The notes under the pieces are model-generated. The model was given only the letters and a program-made list of their open reading frames with translations. It was not told where the DNA came from and made no database searches. From a virus, in the IMG/VR virus record IMGVR_UViG_3300032315_001715, positions 1 through 64,000 of that record: 64,000 bases of DNA; one strand, 5' to 3'. Of the stretch, positions 8,285-39,618 are shown one piece after another. Positions within the stretch are counted from its first letter, which is position 1. Every line of letters starts with the position of its first letter. The position numbers and the translations under genes are program-made.

Positions 8285-10452
8285 GCGGAGATCACTTCTT
8301 TGATCGCCGTTTCAAGCTCCAGTGCAGCCAGTCGATCGCACTGGTTGATGTAGTCCTGCACCTTGCGGGTCAGTGCCGGAGCATCAAATCGGCTGCCGTA
8401 GCCGTAATGGCTGCGATCAAGCACGATGTCCAGCATTGGATAGGCTGCCGTCACCTCGCCGTAGAGATCCTTGGCATTCACCGATGGCAACACCGTTTGC
8501 ACCGTGTTACCAAAGATCTTTGCCAGCTCGATCAGCTGTTGATCCTTGACGGCCTTGTCATTGGCCGCGGAAAGCTGTCGCATTGCCACTGCAAATCTAC
8601 CCAACGGGCCATTCGATCGATCCAGCCGCCAGTTATTGGTCCACAGTCCACGATCACGAGCCGAGCTAGCAACTTCATTGAAGTGTGCGCTGTCAGCCAC
8701 CGTTTGCATCACCGACGGCTTCAACCGCTTGGTTACCTCGTCTCGAACCACGCTCCAGACGTCCCTCCAATCTGCACTGTCCTCAACCTTCTTTTTGAAT
8801 GCACCGCGCGGCGCATAGATCGTATCGGTTTCCTTGAGAATGCCCAGGGACTTGGCCAAGGCAACCGTGCGTTCGAGCTTGTTGCCATGACCTAGACCGC
8901 CATCCGGACCTCGAACGTCCCAGTGATCTAGCAGCACATAGATACCGCCGTCCTCGAGGGTAACGTCCACCGGCTTCCATGCCTTGGTGTTGGACCCCAC
9001 TCCTCGATAGGACATCATGCTGATCTTGGTGCGTGCCGCGGAAGGCCGCTTGGGCAATGCGCTGGCCATCTCAAAGGACGGATTACCCAGGATCTTTACG
9101 ACGTCGTCCTGGGTCTTCTTAGCAGTGGTTAGATCAAAGAAATAAATCTCTGCCGAGGCCGCGCTGGTCTCGATCAGGTAATTCACCCGGCTAAGGGCAC
9201 CCTTGTCGAGATCATTAAAGATGAATCGCGCACGATCCGAGCAGCGAATGGTGAGATCGGCATGGCAGGTCTGCTGCCGAACACGCTTGTAGTGTGCGTT
9301 ATTGGCATAGACATCGGGAGATTTTCCTGCCGTGGCATCCCAGATATCCTGAGTTTTCAACGTGACATGCGCTTCCTTGATGAGCTGGTTCTTCCACTTG
9401 AGCCCATGGTTGCCAAATGCCTTTTCAAATTCCCAGCGGAACCCGCTGTCATTACCAAAGATGTTTGAAAAGATCTTGCGTGCTTCCCATTCGGTTGCGG
9501 CACCAGCCATTTGCTTTTCAAAGACCTGACCAAGCTCGTTCAGCACGACATCCAATCGTGCGACGATGCTCTTCTGCGTGCGTTCGTCATATCCCAGGGC
9601 TTCGCGGGAAGCGGCGATCTCAAGATCGCCGATGCCAAAATCCACAACCAGCGGCGTTTCGAGGATCGCGGTCTGTGCCTTGCTGAGGCCATTGATCGAA
9701 TTGCGATCCAACGGATACGCCACCCGCCCCATCAAAGCCACCGGACGATTCTGCTCCCGGGAATAATAGTCGTCATTCTTGCGGAGTATCCGCCAGCCAT
9801 TGCCTTCAAATGCAATCTTAGGTTCGGAAATTTCCAGCTTGTTGACACCGGTGATCTCCGGACGAACGGAAAACCAACGGAATACCATGGCGGCTTTTTC
9901 GGCAAAGCGACGCATGTCGTCCTGCTTGACCGGCATCTTCACCGTGACGCCATTGGGTTCCGAGGTAGGCTTTTCTCCCAGCAACGCCACGCTGGGCATG
10001 CCAGACTCGTTCTTGTACATGGAATACTGGCGTTCAATGCCATTCTTGATGGCGGTGACATCAAACGCATCCACGTAGCTGAACGGGCTCTTGCAGCCCA
10101 ATCCCAGCTGACCGATCAACTCGTTGCTGTGGATCTTGGTGCTGGCACCATAGGTGGTAAACGTGCTGATGACCTCCTGATGATTCATGCCGATGCCAAA
10201 GTCTCGCACGTGGAAGAAGGGCTCAAACATCGTGGGTAGATGCACTTGGATGGGCACGCCGGCCTTGCCGACCTCAACATGGCTGTCCACCGCGTTGCAG
10301 CTCAGTTCGCGGATGATGCTTTGGATCTTGTCCGAGTAGAGGCCGTCCGATAGGATCTTGGCCATCTTGGCATTGAAGATGATACCATAGGCACCATCTG
10401 ATGCAAGTCCATCTCGCTCAACGACGGTCTCATTCGTAGAATTGATCTTCAC
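8281..10452 (-). CDS. rIIA: RIIA-like protein, GHKL ATPase fold
   Basis: 723 aa, close to the T4 RIIA length. N-terminal motifs fit a GHKL (Hsp90/histidine-kinase-like) ATP site: IIRELSCNAVDSH (N box), VRDFGIGM (G1), TTYGASTK and IGQLGLGCKSPF (G2). The GTG at 10452 is chosen because AAGGAA lies 7 bp upstream and the promoter TTGACC-16-TATGTA (10487-10514) would start transcription just before it; longer in-frame starts lie inside or upstream of this promoter. Partner of rIIB immediately downstream. Confidence 0.9.
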   Translation of the reverse strand: MKINSTNETVVERDGLASDGAYGIIFNAKMAKILSDGLYSDKIQSIIRELSCNAVDSHVEVGKAGVPIQVHLPTMFEPFFHVRDFGIGMNHQEVISTFTTYGASTKIHSNELIGQLGLGCKSPFSYVDAFDVTAIKNGIERQYSMYKNESGMPSVALLGEKPTSEPNGVTVKMPVKQDDMRRFAEKAAMVFRWFSVRPEITGVNKLEISEPKIAFEGNGWRILRKNDDYYSREQNRPVALMGRVAYPLDRNSINGLSKAQTAILETPLVVDFGIGDLEIAASREALGYDERTQKSIVARLDVVLNELGQVFEKQMAGAATEWEARKIFSNIFGNDSGFRWEFEKAFGNHGLKWKNQLIKEAHVTLKTQDIWDATAGKSPDVYANNAHYKRVRQQTCHADLTIRCSDRARFIFNDLDKGALSRVNYLIETSAASAEIYFFDLTTAKKTQDDVVKILGNPSFEMASALPKRPSAARTKISMMSYRGVGSNTKAWKPVDVTLEDGGIYVLLDHWDVRGPDGGLGHGNKLERTVALAKSLGILKETDTIYAPRGAFKKKVEDSADWRDVWSVVRDEVTKRLKPSVMQTVADSAHFNEVASSARDRGLWTNNWRLDRSNGPLGRFAVAMRQLSAANDKAVKDQQLIELAKIFGNTVQTVLPSVNAKDLYGEVTAAYPMLDIVLDRSHYGYGSRFDAPALTRKVQDYINQCDRLAALELETAIKEVISA

Positions 10453-22858: not shown

Positions 22859-23092
22859 TCACGTCCACACAAACGCAAACAACGTGCGATCGTCAATGTT
22901 TTTAAACCAAAATCTGCCACCTTGGTCACAGCACCAGCTATCCGGTAGCAGCTTGTTGTCACACCATATGCGTGCCCGCAATATCCGTTCTAGCTGTCCA
23001 GATCCGTCGCTTGGATCGCCCGGCAACATGCCCACGTGATACGGATAGTCGTCTCGGCGAACCTCTGTTGCGGTCAAAGATAATCCTTCCAT
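22859..23092 (-). CDS. LTW-family small protein
   Basis: 77 aa. Family signature: W-C near the middle (RIWCDNKL) and a C-terminus FWFKNIDDRTLFAFVWT. Its ATG lies inside the V-W codons of the upstream gene (GTATGG). Last of the first cluster. Function unknown. Confidence 0.65.
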   Translation of the reverse strand: MEGLSLTATEVRRDDYPYHVGMLPGDPSDGSGQLERILRARIWCDNKLLPDSWCCDQGGRFWFKNIDDRTLFAFVWT

Positions 23093-23328
23093 ACCATTTC
23101 AAACATCACGGCATCCTCATGCTGTGCAAAATGCCAAATTTCCCCTAAACCATCAGGACGGCTCCAAGAATCGGTAACCCGCAGCGAGGAAGGCGCGATC
23201 CAATTGATGCGTCCGGGCACAGCGGCGATGTTGCTGCGGCACCACCGCCGGCGCGCCGGGCGTAGATCAGCATCAATTGGCAGGGTTACCTGCCAGTAGG
23301 CTGCTTGATGTGGGCGCCTAACCGGCAT
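23074..23328 (-). CDS. LTW-family small protein
   Basis: 84 aa. RRWCRSNI and IWHFAQHEDAVMFEMVW carry the W-C and D-A-V-x-F signatures; a short tail KDYL follows. Start overlaps the HNH gene end by 11 bp. Confidence 0.65.
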   Translation of the reverse strand: MPVRRPHQAAYWQVTLPIDADLRPARRRWCRSNIAAVPGRINWIAPSSLRVTDSWSRPDGLGEIWHFAQHEDAVMFEMVWKDYL

Positions 23329-23884
23329 TGAGTTTTTCTAACAGTTGTCGTTTTCTTTCCAGTTCAACCGGGCTATCTGGATCAAATTTGTTGCCTTTGC
23401 TGGCATTTTTGCTGGCAGCAATTACCTGTAGATTCCACGGAACATGCAGACCGCAAACATTGCTGCCTTGCAAGGGCACGATGTGATCTACCTGGTGTGG
23501 GATGCCAGTGGATTTGGTCAGTTCATCGGCCAGCACATACATGGCCTTTATTTCATCCAGCTGTGATGTGGTCAACCATTTTGGTGTTGCCTTAAGCTTG
23601 GCTGCCCTGCGTTGGGCCTTTAATTTATTGTAATTTGCTCTATTTGTCTTTTGCTCTGCCCCCTTGCATGCATGGCACTTGATTTTGTCACGGCCATCTT
23701 GCGCGGTATGATCCGTGTAGCGAACAAAATCATAACCACCGCAGCGCACACAGGGGGTAGATCGACGGAAACGGACCATTCCTAGCTCGGCAGCACGCCA
23801 TACCGGCATAGCAGCATCATCAAACAGCCCATCAAACAACTCCGCGCGGGTATCGCTAAGATCAAAATCAACGTTGTCAGTCAC
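23318..23884 (-). CDS. HNH endonuclease
   Basis: 188 aa. GTG start with CAGGAG 6 bp upstream; the open frame extends further but overlaps the preceding gene. CVRCGG...CHACKG is a zinc ribbon; HQVDHIVPLQGSNVCGLHVPWNLQVIAAS is the HNH core with N and H in place. It sits inside the LTW cluster, as a mobile HNH nuclease might. Confidence 0.85.
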   Translation of the reverse strand: MTDNVDFDLSDTRAELFDGLFDDAAMPVWRAAELGMVRFRRSTPCVRCGGYDFVRYTDHTAQDGRDKIKCHACKGAEQKTNRANYNKLKAQRRAAKLKATPKWLTTSQLDEIKAMYVLADELTKSTGIPHQVDHIVPLQGSNVCGLHVPWNLQVIAASKNASKGNKFDPDSPVELERKRQLLEKLNAG

Positions 23885-23918
23885 ATTAAGCTCCTGTTGA
23901 AATCGCAAACATCTGCCA

Positions 23919-24143
23919 TCATGGCGTGTCTCCGAGGCAAACAAAGTAAAACATCACAGCATCTTCCTCGGTGAGAAAATGAAACGTCCCCCGACCAGCT
24001 TGGCAGATCCAGCGAGAATGGGGTTGGTTGTCAACCAACCAACGCCATGCTGGAATACAATATCGTCGGGAGCCGGCGGAAAGGGTCACGCACCAAGGAT
24101 GCGTTGGGGTGCTGGTATCGTGCGCTATGGCTCCCTGGGTCAT
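23919..24143 (-). CDS. LTW-family small protein
   Basis: 74 aa. WRWLVDNQ, FHFLTEEDAVMFYFVC. The ATG overlaps the TGA of the upstream family member (GATGA). The conserved Cys after W is replaced by Leu. Confidence 0.6.
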   Translation of the reverse strand: MTQGAIAHDTSTPTHPWCVTLSAGSRRYCIPAWRWLVDNQPHSRWICQAGRGTFHFLTEEDAVMFYFVCLGDTP

Positions 24144-24376
24144 CGCCACACCAACTGGAACAACACTCGGGATTCCAGGATTCGAAAGCGCCAGACATAA
24201 CCGTTGTTGGTCCAGACATGATGCCATTCTCGAAATTCCTCACCGAGATTGGCCTGGCACCACGCTCGACGAGCATTGAACGCTCCGACGGCGAGATCAA
24301 CGCCCTCAGCAACATCATGCCATCCCTGCCATTGCTGTGCAATCTCTGCCATTCTTAATAATAACTGCGACGCCAT
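24140..24376 (-). CDS. LTW-family small protein
   Basis: 78 aa. RAWCQANLGEEF and WRFRILESRVLFQLVWR fit the family. No clear ribosome site; it starts 6 bp after the preceding gene. Confidence 0.6.
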   Translation of the reverse strand: MASQLLLRMAEIAQQWQGWHDVAEGVDLAVGAFNARRAWCQANLGEEFREWHHVWTNNGYVWRFRILESRVLFQLVWR

Positions 24377-24382
24377 GGCGAG

Positions 24383-24598
24383 TCAACACCATGTTAGCTG
24401 GAAAAGCACAGCAGCATCTTGGTCACGGAACCGAAACCTGCCATGTTGGCTTTGGTATTCCCAGTCAGCACGTTCAACGCCCGCGTTGGCCCGGCACCAT
24501 ACCCTGGCATCGTGGATGTCGGTATATCTGCGCAGGCTCCAGGGCACGGTGTACCATGTGATGGTGGAAAACACCGCACCACGGCGGTTTGCCATCAT
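24383..24598 (-). CDS. LTW-family small protein
   Basis: 71 aa. RVWCRANAGVE and FRFRDQDAAVLFQLTWC: the most typical member. It follows the nuclease-like gene by 6 bp. Confidence 0.65.
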   Translation of the reverse strand: MMANRRGAVFSTITWYTVPWSLRRYTDIHDARVWCRANAGVERADWEYQSQHGRFRFRDQDAAVLFQLTWC

Positions 24599-28972: not shown

Positions 28973-29203
28973 TCACGGTTCTATGGCGAACCTATACCAA
29001 ACGGCAGCTTCAATGTCACGGAAGAACAACCATCCTGCTGCGCAAGTCCATTGGTCCCCGCAGGGTCCCAGCACGGCAACAACCCTGCTGATGATACCAT
29101 GATCTGGCCAGGGAAGGATCCATGCATAGGGATATGCCGATGTGTCCATGTGCGTCGACAACAGCAGCCTAGCAGCAGATTCCATTGGATGTGGTTCAAA
29201 CAT
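28973..29203 (-). CDS. LTW-family small protein, divergent
   Basis: 76 aa. The C-terminus WLFFRDIEAAVWYRFAIEP keeps the aromatic-D-x-x-A-V pattern. The ATG overlaps the TGA of the upstream micro-ORF (ATGTTTGA). Conserved W-C is absent. Confidence 0.5.
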   Translation of the reverse strand: MFEPHPMESAARLLLSTHMDTSAYPYAWILPWPDHGIISRVVAVLGPCGDQWTCAAGWLFFRDIEAAVWYRFAIEP

Positions 29204-29291
29204 CAGCATGGGCGCCAGTGGTCCCCGCAGGTGACGGCACGATGCTGATTGACCCCGAAATGATGGTGTGCAATTCACGGGGCGATGCCAC
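29196..29291 (-). CDS. Micro-ORF with palindrome-encoded PAGT
   Basis: 31 aa from a possible GTG, ending IVPSPAGTTGAHADV; PAGT is encoded by the dispersed CCCCTGCGGGG-type element. Start uncertain. Confidence 0.3.
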   Translation of the reverse strand: MASPRELHTIISGSISIVPSPAGTTGAHADV

Positions 29292-29325
29292 GGCAATCAA
29301 CGGCAACGACCCAGCATTGCGGCCA

Positions 29326-29544
29326 TTACAATAGCCACGCAAGACACCAAGGCGCCACCACGACAGGCGTGTAAAACCACGATGACGCGGTGACGCTGCG
29401 TGGTGATGGCAGCAGCACGACGGGGCCACGTGATGCTGATTTCTCCGTGGATGACGCAGGCCGCGCCATTTTGGCACCAACGCAACACCAGCAAAAAACC
29501 GTGGTGGAGGCGACGCTGAGTGGTGGAGAAAAGATCAGCCCCAT
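29326..29544 (-). CDS. Small protein of LTW chain, divergent
   Basis: 72 aa. It starts in the T-W codons of the upstream gene (ACATGGGGC), contains FCWCCVG and ends APWCLAWLL, so it only loosely fits the family. May be a decayed copy. Confidence 0.45.
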   Translation of the reverse strand: MGLIFSPPLSVASTTVFCWCCVGAKMARPASSTEKSASRGPVVLLPSPRSVTASSWFYTPVVVAPWCLAWLL

Positions 29545-29759
29545 GTGAGCAGGACCCTGGCGTGGAGATCTGACGAGCTGGTTCCCACCACCAACCAACA
29601 CGAATCCACACGTTGATCGATCCTAAAGCTCCATATGCCTGGGTTCGGCCAGACTCCGAAATGGCAGCGACACCATGCGATGATGCCATGCACCTCACCA
29701 GGAGAGGTCAACAGTTCAGCACGATAGGGATAGTTCTCCGCTGGGATCATCAACTCCAT
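29535..29759 (-). CDS. LTW-family small protein
   Basis: 74 aa. IIAWCRCHFGVW and HARVLLTWG match the family. Its ATG lies inside the T-W codons of the preceding micro-ORF. Confidence 0.6.
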   Translation of the reverse strand: MELMIPAENYPYRAELLTSPGEVHGIIAWCRCHFGVWPNPGIWSFRIDQRVDSCWLVVGTSSSDLHARVLLTWG

Positions 29760-29827
29760 GTTAGCGTGACCAACATGTGGCCGTGGAAAAACCTGGTCCC
29801 CGCAGTGGTTATCGCATTCAGCCCCAT
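29750..29827 (-). CDS. 25-aa micro-ORF, fused family ends
   Basis: It encodes MGLNAITTAGTRF joined directly to HGHMLVTLTWS: the PAGT-type N-terminus and the LTW C-terminus with no middle. It starts in the LTW codons of the upstream gene and ends in an LTW that starts the next. It looks like a deletion product that kept the chain intact. Confidence 0.5.
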   Translation of the reverse strand: MGLNAITTAGTRFFHGHMLVTLTWS

Positions 29828-30042
29828 GTTAGCGTGACCAACGCATGATCCTCTGGATTGTCGGTAACCACGGCAGTGAACAGGCCGACGCGGGCCACGG
29901 CGGCCATTCTGATCTCGTGGCCGCCAGAATCGCTGAGGTTCCGATAACACCATGCGTCGACCGTGCCACGCTCACGCCATGCCATGGTGGTAACACGGCG
30001 ATAGGGAAACCCGGTCCCCGCAGGGGTTGTGTTTTCAATCAT
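29818..30042 (-). CDS. LTW-family small protein
   Basis: 74 aa. IENTTPAGTGFPYRR, DAWCYRNLSDSG, NPEDHALVTLTWG. It carries both the PAGT element near the start and the LTW end, so it is the reference full-length member of the second cluster. Starts in TATGATTGA of the upstream micro-ORF. Confidence 0.65.
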   Translation of the reverse strand: MIENTTPAGTGFPYRRVTTMAWRERGTVDAWCYRNLSDSGGHEIRMAAVARVGLFTAVVTDNPEDHALVTLTWG

Positions 30043-30148
30043 ATTTTTGATCTATCGCGTAATCTTCGCAAACCGCGTCCCGTGGTCTCGCGCAAGATTG
30101 TTGCGCAGCATACCTGGTCCCCGCAGGGGTTAGTGTATTCAGCACCAT
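30038..30148 (-). CDS. 36-aa micro-ORF with PAGT element
   Basis: MVLNTLTPAGTRYAAQQ start, no LTW end. It begins in the R-W codons of the upstream gene. Could be an N-terminal remnant of a family member. Confidence 0.4.
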
Positions 30149-30462
30149 CGCAGCGACACCAGCATGTGGTCCTCGGCCGTGCAGGTGAATATGGCTATCG
30201 AGAATGGCGACCGCTGGCGATCCACCACCCTGTCGTCATGCATCAGCTGGGTCCACCATCGGCCAGTGGGGTCCTGCAGGTTGTCACACTGTGGTCCCAG
30301 GTTCTCTCTGCACCATTCGTTCACGTCTGGAAACCACGCAGAGCCTAGCTGGGTCTCAGCACGGTGATTGAGAACCATGGTCCCCGCAGGGGATCTCACC
30401 GGTTGCGCAATCTTCGCAAACCCCATCCCGTGGTTCGACGTAATATTATTACTCAAATCCAT
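30139..30462 (-). CDS. LTW-family protein, long form
   Basis: 107 aa. RSPAGTMVLNHRAE, then NEWCRENLGPQ and TAEDHMLVSLRWC. The N-terminus carries an additional ~25 residues. Its ATG lies in the R-W codons of the preceding micro-ORF. Confidence 0.6.
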   Translation of the reverse strand: MDLSNNITSNHGMGFAKIAQPVRSPAGTMVLNHRAETQLGSAWFPDVNEWCRENLGPQCDNLQDPTGRWWTQLMHDDRVVDRQRSPFSIAIFTCTAEDHMLVSLRWC

Positions 30463-30548
30463 CTCCCAGTAACCATGGTCCCCGCAGGGGTTAGTGTGCT
30501 AAACCTGGTCCCCGCAGTGGTTGTTGTCGACAGCACGGTCAGCACCAT
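30453..30548 (-). CDS. 31-aa micro-ORF with two PAGT elements
   Basis: TTTTAGTRF and LTPAGTM are both encoded by copies of the palindromic element 30 bp apart. It starts in the T-W codons of the upstream gene. Confidence 0.4.
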   Translation of the reverse strand: MVLTVLSTTTTAGTRFSTLTPAGTMVTGRWI

Positions 30549-30751
30549 GTCAGCTGGAATAGCACGAAATGCTGTGGCACTGCAAAGCAGATCACCCGGC
30601 CATCCTCCTCGGTCCACCAGAAACCATTGGTACGATCGGGTCGGCCACAGTTGGTTACCAGCCATCTTGACAGGGTCCTGCGGCCTTGCTTGGTTAGGTG
30701 CTCTGGAGGTATGGTAGCACAGAGGATCTCGGGTGTTTCCTCTAGAGACAT
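30539..30751 (-). CDS. LTW-family small protein
   Basis: 70 aa. SRWLVTNCGRP and FVLFQLTWC. Starts in ACATGTCTC, overlapping the stop of the upstream gene. Confidence 0.6.
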   Translation of the reverse strand: MSLEETPEILCATIPPEHLTKQGRRTLSRWLVTNCGRPDRTNGFWWTEEDGRVICFAVPQHFVLFQLTWC

Positions 30752-30984
30752 GTCAGCTGGAACCTCACCGAGTTGCTGATGGCAGCGAAGCTGAACTGGT
30801 ATTCCATGGGCTGGTTCTCCGGAACCCTCCATGCACACCGCCACTCGTCGTCATCCATGTGGAGACCACACCATTCGATAGCGTCTTCGGCGATCTCCCA
30901 GGGTACCAGCACGCGGTGCTCGAGCGGGTCTTTCCAGCGCTGACCCTCGATGGTCACCCATTGCCCGGGGCTGGAGCCGCTCAT
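30742..30984 (-). CDS. LTW-family small protein
   Basis: 80 aa. DAIEWCGLHMDDDEW, SFAAISNSVRFQLTCL; the final W is Cys here but the following ATG is retained. Start overlaps the stop of the membrane peptide gene (ATGA). Confidence 0.65.
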   Translation of the reverse strand: MSGSSPGQWVTIEGQRWKDPLEHRVLVPWEIAEDAIEWCGLHMDDDEWRCAWRVPENQPMEYQFSFAAISNSVRFQLTCL

Positions 30985-31097
30985 GATATCCACACCCAGG
31001 TGATGATGCACAGGGTGGCGATCACCGTGTACAGGCAACGGGTGGCCCAGGGCTCACGTATGGTGATGGTACGTCGTGGCGTGGTGATGCGCAACAT
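30981..31097 (-). CDS. 38-aa membrane peptide, first gene of LTW chain
   Basis: LRITTPRRTITIRE, then a membrane segment (CLYTVIATLCIITWVWI). AGGAG lies 9 bp upstream, and promoter TTGACA-16-TATTAT at 31122-31149 is the only strong promoter for the chain down to about 28.97 kb. Confidence 0.65.
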   Translation of the reverse strand: MLRITTPRRTITIREPWATRCLYTVIATLCIITWVWIS

Positions 31098-31121: not shown

Positions 31122-31149
31122 ATAATAGCAGGATCCGCAGCGGTGTCAA
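31122..31149 (-). promoter_or_regulatory. Promoter of LTW gene chain
   Basis: TTGACA, 16 bp, TATTAT on the minus strand, 25 bp before the membrane peptide gene. Confidence 0.8.
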
Positions 31150-31220: not shown

Positions 31221-31322
31221 GGGTGTTACCAGCACCACACCACCCTGTTACCGGTACCAGGCTGTTACCAAAACCACCATGGCCTGTTACCAAAACCACC
31301 CTGTTACCGGCACCACACCACC
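31221..31322 (-). repeat. Five GGTAACAG-type repeats
   Basis: On the minus strand GGTAACA recurs five times with 17-25 bp spacing, linked by GGTGGT-rich segments. They lie downstream of the promoter at 31341-31369 and contain no ORF longer than about 10 codons after a start codon. Confidence 0.7.
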
Positions 31323-32779: not shown

Positions 32780-33607
32780 TTAGCCCTCCTGGGCTTCAAC
32801 GTAACGCTTGGGCTTGAGCATGATGGACTCGGCCATGCTCTTCCAGTCCTCGTCGGTCTTGACCAAGCTGGCCAGCTGGAGCACCGTTCGGATGCTCAGC
32901 ACGCGCACGCGGCTGAGGTTGGGGGCCAGCCACCGCATCATCTCCTGGCTCTGTGCCTTGGTGATGCCGTTCTCCTTGAGGAAGCTCTGGCTGAACACCA
33001 CCTGTCCCACGCGCACGAGGATCTCACGCTTGCTGTGGATGCCGAGGTCCACATACATGCAGCGGCTCATCAGCGCCTTGTAGTGCGGCGACATCTTCTT
33101 GTCCGCTTCGATCTCAGCGGTGAAGTCGATGTTGGTGATGAACACCACGGCACCCTCGAACTCAAAGCTCCGATCGATGCCCTCGTCGTCCAGCACGCGG
33201 CTTTCCTTGTTCCAGTGGACCTTGCGGCTCTTGCCCGTGTCCAGCGCGGCCTTCAGCAGGTTCAGCGCGTCCAGGTCGCCGAAGATGCCGTCGCAGTCGT
33301 CGATCACCAGCACGTTGCCCGGCTCACGGCACTCCCAGAGCTGGCGGTACAGCCCAATGGCACTCATGGCACCCTTGACGCTTTGGAAGTTCACCAGCCC
33401 GTCGCTTTCGGCCTTTTGCAGGGCCTTCTCCAGCGTGTAGGTCTTGCCGCAGCCAGCAGCACCGCTGGTGATCACCGCGGTGATGTTGCCGTCGATGATG
33501 CCCTGGGCGACCTTGCCCAGCACGGCAAAGGTGTTGCGGATGCGCAGATCGATCTCCGCCATCGCTTCGTTCTCGCTGGAACGCTGGGCGGTTGCAATCA
33601 TGTTCAT
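32780..33607 (-). CDS. AAA+ ATPase
   Basis: 275 aa. Walker A GAAGCGKT (residues 50-57), Walker B NVLVIDDCDG (~98-107), sensor-1-like VVFITNID (~154-161) and an Arg-rich ALMSRCMYV follow the AAA+ order. It is a compact single-domain ATPase, similar to phage ATPases of unknown client. AAGGA 8 bp upstream; promoter TTGACG-16-TACAAT at 33638-33665. Confidence 0.85.
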   Translation of the reverse strand: MNMIATAQRSSENEAMAEIDLRIRNTFAVLGKVAQGIIDGNITAVITSGAAGCGKTYTLEKALQKAESDGLVNFQSVKGAMSAIGLYRQLWECREPGNVLVIDDCDGIFGDLDALNLLKAALDTGKSRKVHWNKESRVLDDEGIDRSFEFEGAVVFITNIDFTAEIEADKKMSPHYKALMSRCMYVDLGIHSKREILVRVGQVVFSQSFLKENGITKAQSQEMMRWLAPNLSRVRVLSIRTVLQLASLVKTDEDWKSMAESIMLKPKRYVEAQEG

Positions 33608-39603: not shown

Positions 39604-39618
39604 ACCCCTGCGGGGACC
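39604..39618. repeat. CCCCTGCGGGG palindrome between genes
   Basis: ACCCCTGCGGGGACC sits exactly between the stop of the 39619 gene and the next -35 box. Same element at 40105-40119, 50284-50298, 49751-49765 (CCCCTACGGGG), and many times at 29-30.5 kb. Confidence 0.8.

Follow-up and report, generated by a model that had tools for sequence, protein, structure and literature searches.

Does the tryptophan codon at the end of one small phage gene also supply the start codon of the next, and is that start kept by selection? The question is raised by a chain of open reading frames (ORFs) on the minus strand, from 31097 to 29535, in the window analyzed here, which covers the initial 64 kb of a virus record of 452,799 bp that we treat as a jumbo phage. 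Successive ORFs in the chain overlap by 4 to 10 nt, and eight of the starts (30751, 30548, 30462, 30148, 30042, 29827, 29759, and 29544) overlap their predecessor by 8 to 10 nt. All but 30042, seven in total, form the ATG from a codon-final A and the TG of the following TGG (TGT at 30751), a geometry that can be read directly from the junctions. We refer to such a start as a relay.

The annotated phage collection contains no close relative of the window. In the viral collection, the single close relative is a 170-kb contig (L026/L130) with no differences across the 16,234 bases compared, and the AAA-protein gene, used for a second scan for close relatives, found nothing beyond this contig. An apparent match to a further contig (L027) was spurious, and Pelagibacter phage HTVC008M, which had a tblastn E value of 2, gave no matches to the family profile described below. 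The window protein encoded at 32783 to 33607 has ~50% identical counterparts in T4-like phages.

Organization of the chain and of a second cluster

The first ORF of the chain (30981 to 31097; 38 aa) has an AGGAG Shine-Dalgarno sequence, lies outside the protein family to which its neighbors belong, and is joined by an ATGA overlap to the first family member (30742 to 30984; 80 aa; C terminus FQLTCL). This member ends in LTCL, and the start at 30751 lies in its ACA-TGT, so that the residue concerned is cysteine; it opens a 70-aa member (30539 to 30751; FQLTWC) with a 10-nt overlap. The six A-TGG starts, which are all those named above except 30751 and 30042, likewise lie in 10-nt overlaps. They begin with a 31-aa spacer ORF (30453 to 30548; ATG within ACA-TGG) that has two PAGT/TAGT motifs and the C terminus GRWI and whose AGA-TGG contains the start of a 107-aa member (30139 to 30462; VSLRWC). 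A 37-aa spacer ORF (30035 to 30148; ATG within CGA-TGG) follows and is joined through an 8-nt ATGATTGA overlap to a 74-aa member (29818 to 30042; VTLTWG). A 25-aa ORF (29750 to 29827; ATG within ACA-TGG) has family-like ends without the middle, resembling an internally deleted copy in which both ends are kept (MGLNAITTAGTRF...HMLVTLTWS), and its own ACA-TGG contains the start of another 74-aa member (29535 to 29759; VLLTWG). The last relay, again in ACA-TGG, opens a 72-aa ORF (29326 to 29544) that has no homology support, with no family matches in the profile search, and that is probably decayed array DNA. Beyond it lies a diverged family-like frame (28973 to 29296; RFAIEP) without a relay link.

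In the profile search, the full family members in the chain are only those starting at 30984, 30751, 30462, 30042, and 29759. A sequence-only reading of this DNA had described a polycistron of 10 to 12 genes, which overstates the chain: alongside spacer ORFs, it has no more than five or six genes that are credible. Eight start overlaps of the kind that this reading described, namely, those given above other than 30042 together with one at 23092, do exist; its statement that the tryptophan codon makes the start applies to six of the chain cases and to 23092, the codon at 30751 being TGT.

The overlap at 23092 belongs to a second cluster on the minus strand (24598 to 22859). This cluster contains a 71-aa member (24383 to 24598; FQLTWC), a 78-aa member (24140 to 24376; FQLVWR), a member whose GTG start lies in GTG-TGG with a 10-nt overlap and for which an ATGA start is also on offer (23919 to 24149), an 84-aa member (23074 to 23328; MVWKDYL), and a 77-aa member whose ATG lies in GTA-TGG of the preceding gene with a 19-nt overlap (22859 to 23092). 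It therefore has one GTG relay and one GTA-TGG relay. An HNH-endonuclease-like ORF, recognized by eye (frame limits 23318 to 23944, minus strand; start approximate), is inserted between the members and is possibly a homing endonuclease. A profile built on the window members detected the family in 11 stretches of the window and in further ones at 71, 85, 108, and 307 to 321 kb of the record. Near 85.0 kb (L023) there is another ATG relay, where one member ends in LTWA and the next starts with MGLVLKPGTRF.

Promoters, hairpins, and repeats

The chain stands behind a promoter-like sequence, TTGACA-16-TATTAT with an extended −10 TG (31122 to 31149, minus strand). This is the last of ~45 near-identical promoters (TTGAC[AG]-16/17-TGCTA[TC]AAT) found on the minus strand between 31149 and 62946, mostly directly 5′ of a gene. 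The position of the chain behind a strong sigma-70-like promoter suggests that its transcription is early. Just 5′ of the promoter there is a degenerate 17-bp tandem repeat of ~4.6 copies (31234 to 31316).

Elsewhere in the series, a perfect 8- to 10-bp inverted repeat contains or adjoins the −10 box (39222, 39604, 40105, 44137, 48922, and 49302). Six of the promoters (58849, 57704, 52349, 42047, 31733, and 31479; minus strand, ~100 nt each) share a downstream stretch, ..CATAGGGCARCGAGACACCGGGAGG.TGCCGAA..CTGA.., followed in several copies by a short inverted repeat such as GTTGCG-TGAT-CGCAAC. These stretches are a candidate small RNA family and had no match in Rfam. A hairpin-forming sequence, CCCCTGCGGGGACC, occurs in eight copies with 0 or 1 mismatch in members and spacers of the chain (29053 to 30520, minus strand). 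Further copies lie on the plus strand at 39605, 40106, 49752, and 50285, the first two abutting a promoter −35 box, and there are no others in the record at up to one mismatch.

A highly multiplied family of small proteins

Members of the family have a C terminus like A-x-LFKLTW. In many of them, tryptophan is the last conserved residue, and a single amino acid usually separates it from the stop codon. Sinorhizobium phage Phosso (469 kb) emerged from a search of the phage collection, viral contigs yielded 67 stretches in a motif search, and the iterated profile gave ~500 non-redundant members at 83 loci. The final profile has 19 matches in the present record, 58 in Phosso, four in Atu_ph07 (490 kb), and 103, 88, 86, 85, 51, and 37 in records of 416 to 524 kb, along with 18 to 65 in shorter contigs. 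The 103 matches in one 416,714-bp phage record (L112; G001) represent an unusually large expansion.

Searches of Pfam, PHROGs, NCBIfam, and PADLOC gave no consistent match for the family, only isolated weak matches to single members. The structure predicted for the 71-aa member of the second cluster is strand-helix-strand-strand-helix (mean pLDDT, 83; pTM, 0.64), with the LFKLTW motif as the last helix. Many uncharacterized phage proteins in BFVD match this fold in Foldseek with probabilities of up to 1.0. The PDB gave no match (best E value, 0.76 by sequence and 0.87 by Foldseek), and neither solved nor predicted structures provided a functional lead. Neither the family nor a start codon within a tryptophan codon was described in the non-subscription literature searched. 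The family is hugely multiplied, structured, and unnamed, and it accounts for a noticeable fraction of the genes labeled hypothetical in jumbo phages.

Duplication within the array

One explanation confined to the window is that its relays are copies of a single junction in a decaying array, in which the spacer ORFs are untranslated debris. We give this somewhat less than an even chance, and it is compatible with the main explanation developed below. The junction DNA is itself repeated, as a 25-nt family (D2) and an 84-nt pair (D4), so that the repetition of relays in the window stems partly from tandem duplication and is not independent evidence. The apparent internal deletion of the 25-aa ORF fits the same account. 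So does the 37-aa ORF, which reads a 51-nt repeat (76% identical) in a different frame from the homologous start of the 107-aa member, and this argues against a conserved product.

The spacer ORFs of 31, 37, and 25 aa occupy spacers of 58 to 96 nt and contain the repeated hairpin segment, read as PAGT or TAGT. When the spacers were shuffled, 47%, 26%, and 71% of trials produced an ORF that ran as far as the next start and ended inside it; the continuity from relay ATG through spacer to next start is not significant in the window (combined P of ~0.09) and thus is no evidence of function. Furthermore, the relay ATGs of the window mostly open spacer ORFs and not another full member directly, which counts against their use as relays, and the codon before tryptophan ends in A at six of nine member ends in this phage that have no adjacent member. 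With such continuity frequent in shuffled spacers and A present at ends without a neighbor, the window alone would not prove that the ATGs are used. Their significance comes from comparison across phages, where duplication in one array leaves unexplained the separate relays in unrelated sequences.

The base before the tryptophan codon

Tryptophan ends 359 of the ~500 non-redundant members, and 153 of these are followed directly by another member whose frame is that of the hidden NTG. The common ATGA and TAATG junctions use this frame as well, and a junction therefore often offers several starts. What discriminates is the synonymous base before TGG, scored in fourfold-degenerate codons at non-redundant junctions and separated according to whether the downstream member has another ATG between −9 and +20.

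Where there is no such alternative ATG, the fourfold codon ends in A at 25 of 33 junctions, whereas the loci's own codon use predicts 7.2, and none of 100,000 draws was as high. Bases forming GTG (1 versus 5.7 expected) or TTG (2 versus 9.6) are depleted. Where an alternative ATG exists, A is found at 18 of 70 junctions (15.7 expected). The difference between the two classes is significant after redundancy reduction (Fisher P = 1.4e-5), with sequences of varying kinship counted as independent after a similarity filter that may have retained loosely related ones in the non-redundant set. Near-duplicate contigs were considered as the source of the effect and rejected, since it survived both redundancy reduction and the control for own codon use. 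The pattern used to collect contigs required ACN before TGG and so did not favor A. At the remaining tryptophan ends there is a mild excess of A (48 of 157 versus 33.0 expected), and at 15 of the A-ended ones, the hidden ATG opens ORFs of at least 60 codons, several of which appear by eye to be diverged members or other genes.

The relays could instead be by-products of the frequency of A-ended codons before TGG, with the next genes starting elsewhere or through other overlaps. The six of nine ends in the present phage and the background level of A where an alternative ATG exists are what such an account would lead one to expect. However, the excess of A is confined to junctions lacking an alternative ATG, and relay-only pairs recur in many records, including two annotated starts in Phosso. 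We regard this account as improbable and already disfavored by the codon test.

The position of the junctions points in the same direction as the codon test. Junctions with a single ATG at −10 number 23 for tryptophan-ended members and 1 for members without tryptophan; the −10 position recurs because the tryptophan codon, which supplies the TG, is fixed relative to the stop. The search in other phages for the same C terminus and ATG overlap, proposed in the sequence-only reading, found −10 overlaps in many of them. Two pairs of Phosso coding sequences (XYS97329/97328 and XYS97193/97194) were deposited with 10-nt overlaps, the relay ATGs being at 114303 for XYS97328 (N terminus MAITPYK) and at 8334 for XYS97194, their starts presumably being derived from a gene caller and not constituting proof of initiation. 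Only four orthologous junction pairs are informative, a small sample for conservation.

The idea that the conserved C terminus also serves as a stop-start relay thus gains from selection at the synonymous site, the recurrence of −10, the lack of Shine-Dalgarno sequences, and the Phosso annotation, but the relay is one option among several junctions. Junctions at −4 (ATGA), −1, and +1 combined are commoner than relays in the family. The relay shows no selection at junctions with ATGA or TAATG and is therefore not a family rule.

Proposed translation at the junctions

A Shine-Dalgarno core precedes 1 of 28 relay-only starts, compared with an in-gene background of 9.7% and with 15 of 23 Phosso genes that follow gaps of more than 20 nt. 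The scarcity of cores, together with the overlap, points to reinitiation by a ribosome that has just terminated. Uncoupled initiation at leaderless-like or unstructured starts, with the overlap merely saving space, is slightly less probable still than the by-product account, given this difference in core frequency.

The explanation that we favor, and consider likely, is termination-reinitiation at a start codon kept by synonymous choice inside the invariant tryptophan. The loci are tandem duplicates of one small-protein family. Since tryptophan is encoded by TGG only, an A before it creates xxATGGNNNTRA, in which an ATG ten bases before the gene end is in frame with the next gene. By analogy with known cases of coupling (PMC6728339, PMC10666635, and PMC12548453), the terminating ribosome may stay and reinitiate at this hidden ATG, which would allow a downstream copy to be translated without its own ribosome-binding site; the spacer ORFs may be translated in the same way. 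Such a start costs one synonymous base and no amino acid change, and tandem duplication copies the junction along with the gene, as the junction repeats in the window show. Within a conserved protein end, a single synonymous base thus appears to be under selection as a component of a neighboring gene's start codon.

More tentatively, and with a probability nearer one in three than one in two, the terminal tryptophan may be part of an amplification-ready cassette. Units ending in xxATGGNNNTRA could then be linked head to tail, or duplicated in that arrangement, and would stay translatable with no ribosome-binding site for the price of one synonymous base. If so, it may help jumbo phages to assemble arrays of small early proteins, up to ~100 in number, that diverge from one another.

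Comparison with known systems

PeSL cassettes of T4-type phages combine a stem-loop with an early promoter. The likeness here is limited to the regions of about 39604 and 40105, where a hairpin lies beside a strong early-type promoter. The hairpin copies of the chain differ in orientation, have no promoter, and lie mostly inside ORFs; none is an intergenic stem-loop next to an early promoter.

Uncultured Caudovirales proteins in BFVD (for example, A0A6J5L4C8 and A0A6J7WFP6) share the predicted fold with a Foldseek probability of 1.0, and they are unnamed and uncharacterized. In Bacillus phage G, a zinc ribbon has undergone lineage-specific expansion to ~35 copies (PMC7824862); as here, a small-protein family has multiplied in one jumbo phage. 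In contrast, the present family has conserved Trp/Phe residues, no recurring Cys pattern, and up to 103 matches per record.

A further comparison is with termination-reinitiation coupling (PMC6728339, PMC10666635, and PMC12548453), which shares with the relays co-directional genes, a start just before the upstream stop, and the lack of a Shine-Dalgarno sequence. In the family, the downstream start overlaps or abuts the upstream stop, with overlaps of 10 nt and also of 8, 4, 16, and 19 nt, and the Shine-Dalgarno core found at a single relay-only start of the 28 agrees with a feature that is typical of coupling and not strictly defining. The usual overlaps in coupled genes are 4, 1, or 8 nt, whereas here −10 is recurrent. 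Overlaps of −7, −10, and −13 are several-fold rarer than those of −8, −11, and −14 (PMC10666635). The family thus offers more than 25 natural junctions at which reinitiation can be tested at −10 overlaps, which are rare elsewhere.
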